Origin: Sulfurimonas sp.
Lineage (GTDB): Bacteria > Campylobacterota > Campylobacteria > Campylobacterales > Sulfurimonadaceae
DNA length: 32,048 nucleotides
Reading direction: 5' to 3'
Assembly (NCBI GenBank): GCA_021648405.1
Contig: JAKISX010000013.1
Coordinates: 1-32,048, forward strand
Both the position numbers and the translations under genes were made by a program. Positions 14,070-18,811 of the stretch are shown one piece after another (positions within the stretch are counted from its first letter, which is position 1; every line of letters starts with the position of its first letter). The notes beneath the pieces were generated by a model. It was not told the DNA's origin. It made no database searches and was given only the letters and a program-made list of their open reading frames with translations.

Positions 14070-15332
14070 ATGGAAATATTAAAAGAGATTACAAAAGATT
14101 TAAACAATAATACAAATATTTTTTTAACTGGTGGAGCTGGGGTTGGAAAAACAACTATAACACGTCAAGTGATTCAGAATTTTATTGATGATGCAAAAAA
14201 AGTTGCAAAACTTGCTTCAACTGGTATGGCTGCTACTTTAATAGATGGGCAAACTCTTCATAGTTTTTTGGATTTGGGCATAGCTAACAATATTGAAGAT
14301 TTAGAAAAAAACTCTAAATTTAATATTAAAAAAAAGATTAAAAAACTTGTTTCACAAATGGATTTGATAGTTATAGATGAAATTTCTATGGTTAGTGATA
14401 GTCTATTTGAGATGATAGAACTTCGTCTAAGTCAAGCAGAGTTTAAGGGGACACTTTTAGTTGTAGGGGATTTTTTACAGCTACCTCCTGTTGTTCGTGG
14501 TAGTGCTGAAGTTAAATTTGCTTTTGAATCTATATCTTGGGATAATTTTACCTTTAAAAAAGTTGAACTTACACATATATATAGAACAGATGATGTGAAG
14601 TTTATAAAACTTTTAGGTGAAATTCGTAGAGGTTTTGTAGATGAATGTGTACATAATCATCTAAATGAATTTATAAAACCACTGCCAGAGGATTTAAATG
14701 AAGCTACATTTCTTTTTGGAAAAAATATCTCTGCGCAAAAACATAATAAATCTCAACTAGACTTTGTAGATGGTGAGCTTTTTACAAAAGATGCTCAGGT
14801 TATCAAACATGTTAAATCAACAAAAGATAGTGAGATTGATAGGTTTATTAATGATGCAAGGATAGAAAAAGAGCTAGAATTAAAAATAGGAGTACCTGTT
14901 TTATTTACAAGAAATTCTTGGAATTATTTTAATGGAGAGAGAGGTAAAGTTATAAATATTGATAGTAATTTTATATATGTACAAAAGGATGATGGTATTG
15001 TTATAAAATTAGAAACAACACCTCAAAGTAAAAATATTTGGAGGGAAAAAACAATCAACGGAAAAAAAGAGATGGTTGAAGAGGATCTGTTTACTATTCA
15101 CCAATTTCCTATAAAATTAGCATATGCAATAACTATACATAAGTCACAAGGGATGTCGATACAAGACTTAATAATTCAAACAAATGAAATTTTTGCGCCC
15201 TCACAGTTTTATGTAGCACTCTCAAGAAGTTCAAATCCATCAAGTCTAAATCTAATTGCCCCACATTCTCAATGGCATAGTATAGTTTATGTTGATAAAA
15301 AGGCGCTAAAATTTGTAAAGGGAACAATATGA
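14070..15332 (+). CDS. Pif1/RecD-like superfamily 1B helicase
   Basis: Codes for 420 residues with the complete SF1B motif set: Walker A GGAGVGKTT (21-29), DEISM with D103/E104, motif III GDFLQLPPV (133-141), YRTDD (171-175), a motif V region AITIHKSQGMS near 353-363, and motif VI YVALSRS near 386-392. This is the compact Pif1-like type, a 5'-3' DNA helicase; extra nuclease or zinc domains are not seen. The ATG at 14070 lacks a Shine-Dalgarno and sits 6 bases after a TATAAT, so the mRNA may be leaderless. Its stop overlaps the next gene (ATGA, 15329-15332), so the Crp/Fnr regulator is probably made from the same transcript. Whether it serves replication, recombination or stress repair is open. 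Confidence 0.88.
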   Translation: MEILKEITKDLNNNTNIFLTGGAGVGKTTITRQVIQNFIDDAKKVAKLASTGMAATLIDGQTLHSFLDLGIANNIEDLEKNSKFNIKKKIKKLVSQMDLIVIDEISMVSDSLFEMIELRLSQAEFKGTLLVVGDFLQLPPVVRGSAEVKFAFESISWDNFTFKKVELTHIYRTDDVKFIKLLGEIRRGFVDECVHNHLNEFIKPLPEDLNEATFLFGKNISAQKHNKSQLDFVDGELFTKDAQVIKHVKSTKDSEIDRFINDARIEKELELKIGVPVLFTRNSWNYFNGERGKVINIDSNFIYVQKDDGIVIKLETTPQSKNIWREKTINGKKEMVEEDLFTIHQFPIKLAYAITIHKSQGMSIQDLIIQTNEIFAPSQFYVALSRSSNPSSLNLIAPHSQWHSIVYVDKKALKFVKGTI

Positions 15333-15961
15333 TTGAAATATTAAAAAAGATGTTTTTATTTGAAAATTTATCAGATGATATTTTAAAAATAATACAAAAA
15401 GATTGTGAAATAATATCTTTAAAAAAAGACAATATTGTTTTTTATGAAGGTGATGAGCCAAAATATCTATATTTTTTAATTGAAGGAAATATAAAACTAT
15501 ATAAGATGTTAGCAAACAACAATGAGTTGATTTTAAAATATTTTAAACATAATGAGAGTATAGCCGAAGTGGCTGTTTTTGATGGATTTAATTATCCAGC
15601 TACAGCAGAAACTATCACCGATACAAAACTACTAAAAATAGATTTTCAAAATCTCAAAGAACTTTTTTTAAAAAATCCGTACATTTTATTGAATCTAAAT
15701 TCATCTTTGATAAAAAAGGTAAAAAATTTAGAAACTTTACTTTTGAGATATTTGGTATTAGACGCAAAAGGGAGAGTTGTTGATTTTATTTTGCAAAATA
15801 CACAACAATTCTTTTTATTAAAACAACATGAGGTAGCTACCATTTTAAACATAAGCCCTGAAACTTTATCTCGCATATTAAAACCATTCAAAGCTGATGG
15901 TATAATTGATATGAAAAATAAAAATGTAAATAAACAAAGACTTGAACTATATAAGAATTGA
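15329..15961 (+). CDS. Crp/Fnr-family transcriptional regulator, FNR/DNR-type DNA recognition
   Basis: Codes for 210 residues. An N-terminal cyclic-nucleotide-binding-type beta barrel spans about 8-115 (EGDEPKYLYFLIEGNIKLYK). A long dimer helix follows, then a winged helix (LLKQHEVATILNISPETLSR, 163-182). The recognition helix has E178, S181 and R182, the ExxSR set with which FNR and DNR read TTGAT half-sites. There is one cysteine (C26) and no N-terminal Cys cluster, so it is not an Fe-S oxygen sensor of the FNR type. A DNR/NssR-like nitric oxide regulator is possible. A matching operator covers its own stop codon and precedes the next operon. The signal is inferred from the family only. Confidence 0.85.
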   Translation: MIEILKKMFLFENLSDDILKIIQKDCEIISLKKDNIVFYEGDEPKYLYFLIEGNIKLYKMLANNNELILKYFKHNESIAEVAVFDGFNYPATAETITDTKLLKIDFQNLKELFLKNPYILLNLNSSLIKKVKNLETLLLRYLVLDAKGRVVDFILQNTQQFFLLKQHEVATILNISPETLSRILKPFKADGIIDMKNKNVNKQRLELYKN

Positions 15962-15971
15962 TGTATGTCAA
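15958..15971. promoter_or_regulatory. FNR/DNR-type operator TTGAT-N4-GTCAA
   Basis: TTGATGTATGTCAA differs from the consensus TTGAT-N4-ATCAA by one base. It overlaps the stop codon of the Crp/Fnr gene and lies upstream of the DUF2249 gene at 16055. A TAAAAT at 15994-15999 would place transcription start near 16006, putting the operator centre at about -41.5, the class II activation position of FNR-family proteins. Another candidate -10, TATAAT at 15984-15989, would put it near -31.5. The adjacent regulator has the matching ExxSR helix. Binding is inferred. Confidence 0.6.
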
Positions 15972-16054
15972 TGAAATAAAAATTATAATTAAATAAAATA
16001 CATACAATCTAGCTCTTAATCAGAGAACTAAATCATAATAACTGAAGGAAAATA

Positions 16055-16399
16055 ATGAGTTCAATACCACAAGACGCACAACAGATAGAGGCGATGGGAT
16101 CATCAGTTGATTTTTTTAAAACCGTACAAGACGGAGTAAGTACATACTATTTTGACACAAGTAAATGTGGACCACCAGCGCCAATGGTAAATGCAATGGC
16201 AGGGCTCCAACTTTTAGAAGAAAATTCTAAATTAGTAATGATAAATCATAAATCACCAGGTGGACTTTTTCCAAAAATTCAAGACGATTATAACTATGAA
16301 GTAGAGGATTTAGCAGATGGTAATGTAAAAGTTGTTTTTACTAAAAAATCTAATGGAGCTGGAACTACAAACTACAACGATAATAAGTGTAGCGGATAA
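16055..16399 (+). CDS. DUF2249/TusA-like small protein
   Basis: Codes for 114 residues; ATG preceded by AAGGA with good spacing. The core YYFDTSKCGPPAPMVNAMAG, then KLVMINHKSPGGLFPKI and VKVVFTKK, follows the DUF2249 pattern (D-x-R-x-x-PPxPx, a G-x-x-L strand, a DxxPxxL helix, a final basic strand). The fold is related to TusA/SirA, and here a cysteine precedes the PP pair as in the TusA CPxP motif, which could make it a sulfur or metal handler. A second cysteine is at the C-terminus (NKCSG). There is no signal peptide. DUF2249 genes are often found near denitrification and NO-response genes in other bacteria. It is first in a three-gene run behind the FNR-type box. Function is not established. 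Confidence 0.7.
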   Translation: MSSIPQDAQQIEAMGSSVDFFKTVQDGVSTYYFDTSKCGPPAPMVNAMAGLQLLEENSKLVMINHKSPGGLFPKIQDDYNYEVEDLADGNVKVVFTKKSNGAGTTNYNDNKCSG

Positions 16400-16405
16400 T
16401 ATATA

Positions 16406-17638
16406 GTGGCAATATCTCAGGAGTTCGCACCTCCATTTAAGCTTATAGCACCGTATTTTATAATTGGTGTTATAGTTTATGTTTTTAGTGTGTTTTTTCT
16501 TTTCTTTTTTGATATAACAATCATTTCGCACCTAGACAGTTCAGTACTTTCATGGATACATTTTCTTTTACTTGGATTTGTAATGATGATAATTTTTGGA
16601 GCGATGGCACAGTTGGTACCAGTTGTTCTTGAAGTTGGACATTTTGCTGTTGAATTGTATTATATAATCTATCCATTACTCTTTATTGGAACAATTATGA
16701 TGGTGGCAGGATTTGGCTTTTTACCACAACTTTTACCATATGGTGGTGTTGTTGTGCTTATCTCTCTCATGATTTTTATATTTGAGACTTTTATGACTAT
16801 CAAAAGGGTAAAAAAATTCAACCTTGTTATGACTAGTGTAGCTTTAGCAAATGGTTTTTTATTTTTTGGTTTAATTTTTGGTTTAATTATGGCATTAGGT
16901 TATGCAGGTATTGTTAGTGTAGATATATCAGCATTACTAAAAGCGCACATATATCTTGTTTTCATAGGTTATGTTGGCATAACAATTATGGGTATGAGTA
17001 TGGTCCTTATCCCTATGTTTTGGTTATCACACAGTTTCTCTTGGAAAAGTGTAACTTATGCTCTTTGGTTAGTTAGTTTTGGTGTTGTAAGTGTTTCATT
17101 ATCTAGTATATTTGATAGTATTTATTTAGAATATATTGGATATTTTTTGACTTTAATTGCTCTATTTTTATATTTTTATCAAGTATTTATTATCTATAAA
17201 TCAAGAGTTAGAGTTGAACGCGATATTTATCTTAGAAGTATGGTATTTTCATATATAGGCATGTTGATATCTTTATGTTTAGGGGTTTTATATATTTTTG
17301 TCCCATCACAGACTTTACTTTTAGCAATTGGCTGGATATTAATTTTTGGACATATTACTTTTATAATAAACGGTCATCTGTATAAAATTGTCCCATTTTT
17401 GGTTTGGTTTGAAAGATTTTCCCCATTAGTAGGTAAACAAGAAGTTCCAATGCTTAACGATATGCTCCCAGTAAGAAGCTCTAATTTGCAATTTATATTT
17501 TCCACATGTGGTGTTATTATTGGATTTATAAGTATTTTGATACAAAATAATGAACTATTTCATGCAGGTGTTAGTTTTTTATTTATGGGAAGTGTTTTTA
17601 TTTTAAAAGATTTAATTTATATGATAAGGTTTAAATAA
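16406..17638 (+). CDS. 12-TM membrane protein, NnrS/heme-copper-oxidase-like
   Basis: Codes for 410 residues from GTG at 16406, seven bases after the previous stop; no better start is seen. Twelve membrane segments can be drawn (about 13-35, 46-70, 82-105, 108-128, 138-170, 176-205, 216-236, 242-265, 277-300, 305-335, 361-380, 386-408), as in NnrS and heme-copper oxidase subunit I. Three helices end in a G-x6-P motif: G65-P72, G196-P203 and G323-P330. Each is preceded by a histidine in or near the same helix (H52, H181, H316), and H324 is an extra candidate. These could be heme or metal ligands. It sits between DUF2249 and DUF59 genes behind an FNR-type operator, so NO or copper/heme metabolism is plausible. 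The family assignment rests on topology and motif shape only. Confidence 0.6.
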   Translation: MAISQEFAPPFKLIAPYFIIGVIVYVFSVFFLFFFDITIISHLDSSVLSWIHFLLLGFVMMIIFGAMAQLVPVVLEVGHFAVELYYIIYPLLFIGTIMMVAGFGFLPQLLPYGGVVVLISLMIFIFETFMTIKRVKKFNLVMTSVALANGFLFFGLIFGLIMALGYAGIVSVDISALLKAHIYLVFIGYVGITIMGMSMVLIPMFWLSHSFSWKSVTYALWLVSFGVVSVSLSSIFDSIYLEYIGYFLTLIALFLYFYQVFIIYKSRVRVERDIYLRSMVFSYIGMLISLCLGVLYIFVPSQTLLLAIGWILIFGHITFIINGHLYKIVPFLVWFERFSPLVGKQEVPMLNDMLPVRSSNLQFIFSTCGVIIGFISILIQNNELFHAGVSFLFMGSVFILKDLIYMIRFK

Positions 17639-17976
17639 TGTACTCAAAAGAAGAAATTTTTAAAGCAATCTCAACAGTAAAAGATCCAGAAGTTGGATTC
17701 AATTTAGTAGAGATGGGACTCATTTATGATGGAGTTTGTGATGAAAATAATGTAGTTAAGGTTACTATGACTTTAAGTACAAAAGCATGCCCACTTCATC
17801 AAATGATTGTTCAGTGGGTTAAAGAAGCAGTAATTCGTGAGTTAGAAGATGTGCAAGAGGCGGAAGTTGAAGTTGTATGGGAGCCAGAGTGGAATATCAC
17901 AATGGCTGATGATAGTGTAAAAGAAAAACTTGGTGGAAAAATGGGTAAAGAAGAAAAAACTGATATATGGTTTTAG
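17638..17976 (+). CDS. DUF59/MIP18-family Fe-S cluster assembly factor (SufT/PaaD-like)
   Basis: Codes for 112 residues; the ATG overlaps the stop of the membrane protein by one base (TAATG), so translation is coupled. The family signature is clear: ISTVKDPEVGFNLVEMGLIY at the N-terminus and MTLSTKACPLHQMI in the middle with the conserved Cys, then VEVVWEPEWN. Such proteins help mature Fe-S or other metal-containing proteins in the cytoplasm. The C-terminal tail (DDSVKEKLGGKMGKEEKTD) is charged and probably flexible. Its place in this operon suggests it services a metal centre made or damaged in the same pathway. Confidence 0.85.
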   Translation: MYSKEEIFKAISTVKDPEVGFNLVEMGLIYDGVCDENNVVKVTMTLSTKACPLHQMIVQWVKEAVIRELEDVQEAEVEVVWEPEWNITMADDSVKEKLGGKMGKEEKTDIWF

Positions 17977-18010: not shown

Positions 18011-18811
18011 TTACAATGAGGAAGTATCGTTACCTATTTCATTTAAAAATGTTTCCATATCATATTTAACTCGATATTGCGGAGTCATAATGTGAATCAA
18101 TATATCACCTAAGTCTATTACAACCCAGTCACCACTCTCATCAACATTGTTAAATGCTTCAGCAGGCTTAATCCCTTTTTTTAAGTGCTCAAGTAATGCT
18201 AAAGTATGGCGTGGACCAAGTGACGATGCTATGATTGCATAATCTACAATATAATCTTTGTTTTTTAAATCAAAAACTTCTATCGATTCAGCTTTATTTT
18301 TATCTAATACATCTATAATATTTTTTATTCTTGTTTGCAATTTATTCCTTCTAATTTGTGTAGATGATATTTTTTTATCTACATTAAGAGTTAAGTAACT
18401 CTTCGGTATTGGTATATTATCTCTTGAAGCAACTACAAAAGTAACACACTCTTTTAATTCTTTATATCTATGCCACTCTTTTAGAGTAGATAAGTTATCA
18501 GCACCTATAATAAGATAAATTTTTTTATATCTTTTTAAAAGATGTTTAACAGTAATGATTGAGGGGACTTTCTTTTTTTTATTTATCTCAAATCTTGACA
18601 CCTCAATATTTTTGTTATCTTTAAAAATATCATTAAGCCATTGAAATCTTTTCTCATAAGAGTTATGAGAAACTGATTTAAATGGGTTAAGATAAGTTGG
18701 CATAACTATCACTTTTTCAACATCTTTGAAATTTAGTGCAGCTTTTGCAATGCTCTCATGTCCGATATGGGGAGGGTCAAAACTACCTCCAAAAAGTGCA
18801 ATCGTTTTCAT
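18011..18811 (-). CDS. nadD: NadD joined in frame to ribosomal silencing factor RsfS
   Basis: One uninterrupted 266-codon frame. Residues 1-157 are nicotinate-nucleotide adenylyltransferase, the NAD synthesis step from NaMN and ATP: GGSFDPPHIGHES, the YLIIGADNLSTLKEWH region, and the ISSTQIRR motif. Residues about 158-266 are a full-length RsfS, the L14-binding factor that silences ribosomes (VLDKNKAESIEVFDLKN, SGDWVVIDLGDILIHIM). The usual last helix of NadD after SSTxIR is missing. A TTG at codon 158 has a perfect AGAAGG six bases upstream, so RsfS may also be made alone (109 aa). It could therefore be a fusion protein, or two products from one frame. nadD and rsfS are common neighbours elsewhere. 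Confidence 0.85.
   Translation of the reverse strand: MKTIALFGGSFDPPHIGHESIAKAALNFKDVEKVIVMPTYLNPFKSVSHNSYEKRFQWLNDIFKDNKNIEVSRFEINKKKKVPSIITVKHLLKRYKKIYLIIGADNLSTLKEWHRYKELKECVTFVVASRDNIPIPKSYLTLNVDKKISSTQIRRNKLQTRIKNIIDVLDKNKAESIEVFDLKNKDYIVDYAIIASSLGPRHTLALLEHLKKGIKPAEAFNNVDESGDWVVIDLGDILIHIMTPQYRVKYDMETFLNEIGNDTSSL
18338..18352 (-). promoter_or_regulatory. rsfS: Internal ribosome binding site and TTG start for RsfS
   Basis: On the minus strand AGAAGG (18352-18347), six spacer bases, then TTG (18340-18338), in frame with nadD at codon 158. Translation from here gives MQTRIKNIIDVLDKNKAES, the normal RsfS N-terminus at the normal RsfS length (109 aa). A separate RsfS product is therefore plausible. 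Confidence 0.55.

Follow-up and report, generated by a model that had tools for sequence, protein, structure and literature searches.

The DNA described here is a stretch of 32,048 nucleotides from Sulfurimonas sp. (assembly GCA_021648405.1, contig JAKISX010000013.1), and the whole of this stretch is referred to as the window. Its forward strand carries an operon of three genes, called the triad below. The first gene encodes a DUF2249 protein with a TusA-like fold, as judged from profile and structural model (16055 to 16399). The second encodes a membrane protein of 410 amino acids (aa) with a GTG start, 12 transmembrane helices (12-TM) and, by model and alignment, a heme-copper-oxidase fold (16406 to 17638). 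The third is a DUF59 (SufT/MIP18-type) metal-sulfur cluster assembly factor (17638 to 17976), recognized by its PF01883 match. Only 6 base pairs (bp) separate the DUF2249 and 12-TM genes, and the 12-TM and DUF59 genes overlap by 1 bp. The gene for a Crp/Fnr-family regulator of 210 aa, crp, was identified from the open reading frame (ORF) list and family profiles at 15329 to 15961 on the same strand. A motif search placed an FNR-type palindrome, TTGATGTATGTCAA, at 15958 to 15971, where it runs across the stop codon of crp and stands in front of the DUF2249 operon rather than of crp. Three tightly spaced genes after an FNR-type site had been proposed in a first-pass annotation of this DNA, and both the coordinates and the spacing agree with that description.

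The triad is a conserved unit. Across 81 loci, a DUF2249 gene preceded the 12-TM gene in 76 and a DUF59 gene followed it in 70. Both partners were present in 66, and several of the loci without a full triad were cut by contig ends. The expected linkage of the 12-TM family to DUF2249 and DUF59 is therefore kept in related genomes. The triad is also strongly linked to nap, nir, nor and nos genes, and this linkage crosses phyla. In other lineages, the genes close by include napA with its partners, two heme d1 genes (nirJ and one for a uroporphyrinogen methyltransferase), and genes for NnrS, an FmdE-like protein and a siroheme decarboxylase-like protein. Members of the 12-TM family that are more distant occur on rhizobial megaplasmids, where the gene order is norD, hemN, DUF2249, 12-TM, DUF2249, DUF59, nnrS, nirK and Crp/Fnr; literature searches returned nothing on the rhizobial 12-TM gene. 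A plasmid of Thermus thermophilus TF28 (L159, 6506-10304) carries DUF2249, three hypothetical genes, 12-TM and DUF59, and this version lies amid transport genes rather than nar genes.

Next, we considered the box upstream of the triad. With one mismatch allowed, the window alone held 15 near-matches compared to 12.9 expected, which is no commoner than chance and, therefore, a comparative test was needed. The sequences preceding the DUF2249 gene were compared between the window and 75 related loci (n = 76). A perfect TTGAY-N4-RTCAA was present in 61 of the 76, where first-order shuffles gave an expectation of 0.27, and it was mostly found about 70 bases 5' of the DUF2249 start codon. In the 61 box-bearing loci, a TA[CT]AAT hexamer began exactly 36 bases after the start of the box, and none matched at neighboring offsets. 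The first T, second A and last T of this -10 hexamer were each conserved at 98%. In the window, the hexamer at this fixed offset is TAAAAT (15994 to 15999, forward strand). The 61 of 76 loci and the fixed -10 offset rule out a chance origin of the box. The spacing from box to -10 is that of a predicted class II FNR-type activator site of the triad operon, with the box centered at about -41.5. The four spacer bases of the box vary among loci, so the conservation is that of a predicted binding site. A box of the kind reported from the window alone (TTGAT-N4-GTCAA) is thus widely kept.

The combined box and -10 pattern was then searched for in 17 genomes, with the reversed pattern as a control. 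Most relatives of the same genus had 4-11 sites and two had none, while the reversed pattern gave almost none. In one complete genome (G117), sites precede the triad, nosZ (TIGR04246, 870 bits), napA (NAPA equivalog), a siroheme decarboxylase of the heme d1 pathway, a hemerythrin and a small globin-like ORF (weak Protoglobin match), with further sites near nirS and nnrS. In a complete genome from another family (G201), they precede the triad, a hemerythrin gene, a precorrin-2 dehydrogenase, napA and nosZ, the last two assigned by sequence resemblance. Since the triad promoter is common to napA, nosZ and heme-d1 genes, the triad belongs to a nitrogen-oxide respiration regulon in these relatives. 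The genome of the window contains 21 perfect palindromes, which are mostly intragenic and look like chance. Only two of them are intergenic and promoter-placed for a clear gene, namely the one at the triad and one at a hemerythrin gene on contig 64.

The Crp/Fnr protein encoded in the window has the recognition helix PETLSR (E178, S181, R182), which places it in the ExxSR class. Its sole cysteine is C26 and an FNR-type cluster of 4Fe-4S cysteines is absent, as the first-pass annotation had read from the protein sequence. No close match to a named equivalog was found for it among the NCBIfam profiles. A Crp/Fnr homologue lies within 3.5 kilobases of the triad at about 21 loci. All of these homologues are of the E..SR type except the one at L139 (PSTLSR), and none has the N-terminal FNR cysteine cluster. 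The neighboring Crp/Fnr protein is most likely the reader of the triad promoter. The unit had been described as dedicated, with a regulator and its own box driving the operon. The adjacency of crp and triad holds in the window, but a Crp/Fnr gene is nearby at only about 21 loci. The regulator is therefore not always dedicated, and the same promoter runs a wider denitrification regulon in relatives. The box belongs to the triad rather than to crp, so it does not speak for autoregulation of crp. A PIF1-like helicase gene (14070 to 15332, forward strand) overlaps crp by 4 bp, and one related locus (L074) keeps the order helicase, crp, triad, with helicase and crp 64-68% identical (crp 64%). This overlap and shared order suggest that crp may be co-transcribed with the helicase.

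The 12-TM protein of the window matched no Pfam family at E<=1 and no NCBIfam family. A sequence search of the PDB gave nothing for the single sequence and nothing significant for the profile. Weak COX1 (PF00115) profile matches were seen in 8 of 59 relatives. The structural model has twelve helices (predicted local distance difference test score, pLDDT, 91.7; predicted template modeling score, pTM, 0.91) and is like oxidase subunit I along its full length. It matched CcoN (8smr_E) with a Z of 35.9 and a root-mean-square deviation of 3.0 Å over 383 aligned residues, and NorB (4xyd_A) with a Z of 33.8. The repeated G-x6-P feature noted in the first-pass annotation occurs three times, once per four-helix unit (G65-P72, G196-P203 and G323-P330). 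An internal three-fold repeat was detected with hhalign between units 1 and 2 (P 73-88) and units 2 and 3 (P 88-92), with only P 2 for units 1 and 3. According to the model, the 12-TM protein is a heme-copper-oxidase homologue without the CuB histidines, probably of the non-catalytic heme-copper-oxidase homologue (HCOH) branch. A fold match to either NnrS or oxidase subunit I had been anticipated. The oxidase and nitric oxide (NO) reductase part was borne out, but the protein is not NnrS. This identity was rejected since neither the protein nor any of its 59 relatives matches PF05940. Of 200 relatives, 131 have NnrS as a gene of its own, and the host likewise carries one on another contig (G000:C53).

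The conserved histidines were then compared to those of the oxidases. H52 in TM2 and H181 in TM6 are the only histidines invariant in 68 sequences across phyla, rhizobial and Thermus proteins included. Another three, H79, H209 and H324, never vary in the DUF2249-linked subfamily of Campylobacterota but are mostly lost in the rhizobial and Thermus relatives. Histidines are missing from TM7, and I308 and W310 occupy the HxH positions of TM10. Therefore, a CuB/high-spin heme site of the known type is absent. H52 aligns with the second histidine of the TM10 HxH in CcoN, a low-spin heme ligand, and H181 aligns with the TM2 histidine of NnrS. These positions suggest one bis-histidine heme between TM2 and TM6, which would be the low-spin site of the oxidases moved by one repeat unit. 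With hhalign, unit 1 aligned with unit 3 of the oxidases (P 90) and unit 2 with unit 1 of NnrS (P 70), but no fit was obtained between unit 3 and the second oxidase unit. A circular permutation relative to the oxidases is only suggested by this pattern. Profile-profile similarity to NnrS was weak and shifted by one repeat unit. The NnrS alignment used mixed two clades and did not decide the matter, and no significant match was obtained with one NorB sequence.

Paralogous 12-TM subfamilies adjoin NO- or O2-binding proteins, namely truncated globin and hemerythrin. One subfamily without DUF2249 (35-42% identity; L053-L055 and L064-L066) is followed by thioredoxin-like and thioredoxin reductase-like genes; its neighbor is a divergent protein of 147 aa, which in L055 is a truncated globin. 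In the host itself, a 12-TM paralogue (24% identity) lies downstream of the hemerythrin gene on contig 64 (L052, 4313-6126), and it is the hemerythrin gene that has the FNR-type box, 75 bp upstream of it.

The two partner proteins differ in how clearly they are assigned. The Pfam match to DUF2249 falls below threshold (24.3 bits compared to 29.5), and the assignment is supported by 24 of 42 family members. The structural model has a TusA fold, with matches to YeeD (Z 8.3), a SirA-like protein (7.5) and TusA (6.8), and the structural matches span Z 6.5-8.3 over 67-72 residues. The protein had been called DUF2249/TusA-like with a CGPPAP motif. The fold is consistent with this, but the cysteine of that motif, C38, is kept in only 43 of 76 DUF2249 proteins, making a TusA-type sulfur-carrier role doubtful. 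The conserved features are instead PxPM, N46, N64, H65 (70 of 76), K66, K74 and a cysteine near the C terminus (C112). During denitrification in haloarchaea, DUF2249 genes are induced (PMC11218638). The DUF59 gene was annotated correctly at first pass, with a clear PF01883 match (E 5.6e-15), and C51 is invariant in 70 of 70 proteins.

Some loci show further features. On a plasmid of Aliarcobacter butzleri (L155; NZ_CP104333.1 30835-44064), the triad adjoins a Tn3 transposase and a recombinase, so the triad can probably move. At L033, L034, L131 and L140, a gene close to the triad encodes an FmdE-like protein of about 198 aa (PF02663 in L034), which contains an AGHSCPT motif. In some lineages, a 4-TM protein of about 148 aa with only a weak DUF2269 match is encoded directly upstream of DUF2249 (L048:5839-6282 and L050:5660-6103). 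In the window, a single ORF of 266 aa at 18011-18811 contains a NadD-like nucleotidyltransferase (PF01467) and RsfS (PF02410), an apparent nadD-rsfS fusion.

We favor, with a probability of roughly 0.55, the reading that the triad handles NO or repairs NO-damaged metal centers during nitrogen-oxide exposure, as a Crp/Fnr-activated unit composed of an oxidase-fold hemoprotein and its helpers. An ExxSR-type Crp/Fnr protein, with NO as its probable signal, would activate the triad from the class II FNR-type promoter. The 12-TM protein, catalytically reduced, would bind one b-type heme between TM2 (H52) and TM6 (H181), and this heme could let it bind NO, or buffer it, within the membrane. The DUF59 protein and the TusA-fold DUF2249 protein may act at the cytoplasmic face of the 12-TM protein to mature it. 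Alternatively, the task of these helpers could be the repair of NO-damaged iron-sulfur (Fe-S) or other metal centers.

The reading is supported by co-occurrence with NirS, which was found in 77 of 98 triad genomes and in 21 of 102 others (200 family genomes; Fisher p about 5e-17). Several points weigh against it. The heme was placed from histidine positions only, and the NirS figures ignore phylogeny. Also, NapA, NirS, NOR and NosZ were not found in the genome of the window (82% complete) or in its closest relative, G189 (92% complete), while both keep the triad; these assemblies are incomplete and the genes may lie in the missing parts. G189 has an NrfA-type enzyme. Without these enzymes, NO would have to be supplied externally or arise by other nitrite chemistry. 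The retention of the triad in such genomes favors a putative defense against outside NO over service to a denitrification enzyme.

Such service is the strongest alternative, and we consider it possible but clearly less probable. In this case, an enzyme such as Nap, Nir, Nor or Nos would have its cofactor (heme, Cu, Fe-S or sulfur) assembled or loaded by the triad, and the 12-TM protein would serve as scaffold or transporter in the membrane. This would agree with DUF59 being an Fe-S assembly family and with the TusA-like fold of DUF2249, as well as with the Sulfurovum-type loci, where the triad is linked to napA and to heme-d1 genes, and with the rhizobia, where it is linked to nor and nirK. 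However, the linked enzyme differs by lineage, NirS is present without the triad in 17 genomes, and the genome of the window and G189 keep the triad with none of those enzymes found.

It is improbable that the 12-TM protein is a sensor that detects nitrate, nitrite or NO and signals through DUF2249 to the Crp/Fnr protein. This has been proposed for DrpA and DrpB in Thermus, which are DUF2249 proteins needed for nitrate-responsive control (PMC6282519), and the Crp/Fnr gene found close by at about 21 loci would fit it. At most loci, however, the triad is not flanked by a Crp/Fnr gene, a sensor offers no obvious role for DUF59, and the DUF1858 and two DUF2249 domains of DrpB are not seen here. 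Also, Crp/Fnr proteins of the ExxSR class usually sense directly.

Even less probable is that the 12-TM protein is a new type of enzyme with NO or O2 reductase activity. The oxidase fold over the whole length and the extra histidines H79, H209 and H324 of the DUF2249-linked subfamily could be taken to support one. Yet these histidines are mostly lost in the rhizobial and Thermus relatives, the missing TM7 histidine pair and TM10 HxH leave no CuB/high-spin heme site of a known kind, and the operon has no electron-donor subunit. A sulfur relay or a thiosulfate/sulfite membrane system comparable to YeeE-YeeD is the least likely. YeeD is the best structural match of the DUF2249 model, but C38 is poorly kept, the 12-TM fold is oxidase-like and not YeeE-like, and the linkage is to nitrogen-oxide genes.

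Returning to NO handling, a more tentative extension concerns the whole 12-TM family. Its members might be distinct, widespread NO-binding membrane hemoproteins, with a single heme between TM2 and TM6 in a shifted or circularly permuted oxidase, matured by DUF2249 and DUF59, and kept for NO defense even in non-denitrifiers. The analysis places a membrane family without a Pfam model, as a predicted oxidase homologue, within a nitrogen-oxide regulon of Campylobacterota, with similar partners in rhizobial nir-nor clusters. It offers a concrete context in which to test what DUF2249 does, and what a DUF59 protein does apart from general Fe-S assembly. The putative class II promoter, with its fixed distance from box to -10, is a precise model for mapping NO-type regulons in Campylobacterota. 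A structural question is also raised, namely how the heme of an oxidase fold can come to lie in another repeat.

Pei, Li, Kinch and Grishin reportedly described, in 2014, three-unit heme-copper-oxidase homologues (HCOH) with two histidines and links to denitrification. The general kind of protein is therefore already known. By that description, the likeness lies in 12 TM in three four-helix units, two conserved histidines and a link to denitrification, whereas no Pfam or NCBIfam model covers the 12-TM family of the window. The 2014 work is cited for the DUF2249 link in PMC11218638. NnrS is a 12-TM protein thought to be of the heme-copper type, is under Crp/Fnr (NnrR, DNR) control and adjoins nir and nor genes (PMC1274295, PMC6710368). 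It shares the 12 TM with the window protein, which has no Pfam match, and in some genomes NnrS (PF05940) lies beside the triad. CcoN and NorB (PF00115) are alike in fold over the full length, but the window protein is without their TM7 histidine pair and TM10 HxH. DrpA and DrpB of Thermus similarly tie DUF2249 to nitrate respiration, but the bicistronic drp operon has no 12-TM or DUF59 gene (PMC6282519). The regulator resembles the DNR/NnrR type in its ExxSR helix, TTGAT-type box and lack of Fe-S cysteines, and in a promoter common to nap, nos and heme-d1 genes in relatives. As far as we checked, the strict DUF2249-12TM-DUF59 unit found throughout the Campylobacterota is new, together with the similar gene orders of rhizobia and Thermus. 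The same applies to the fixed class II promoter and its regulon, to the presence of two paralogues in one genome and to the hypothesis of a shifted heme.

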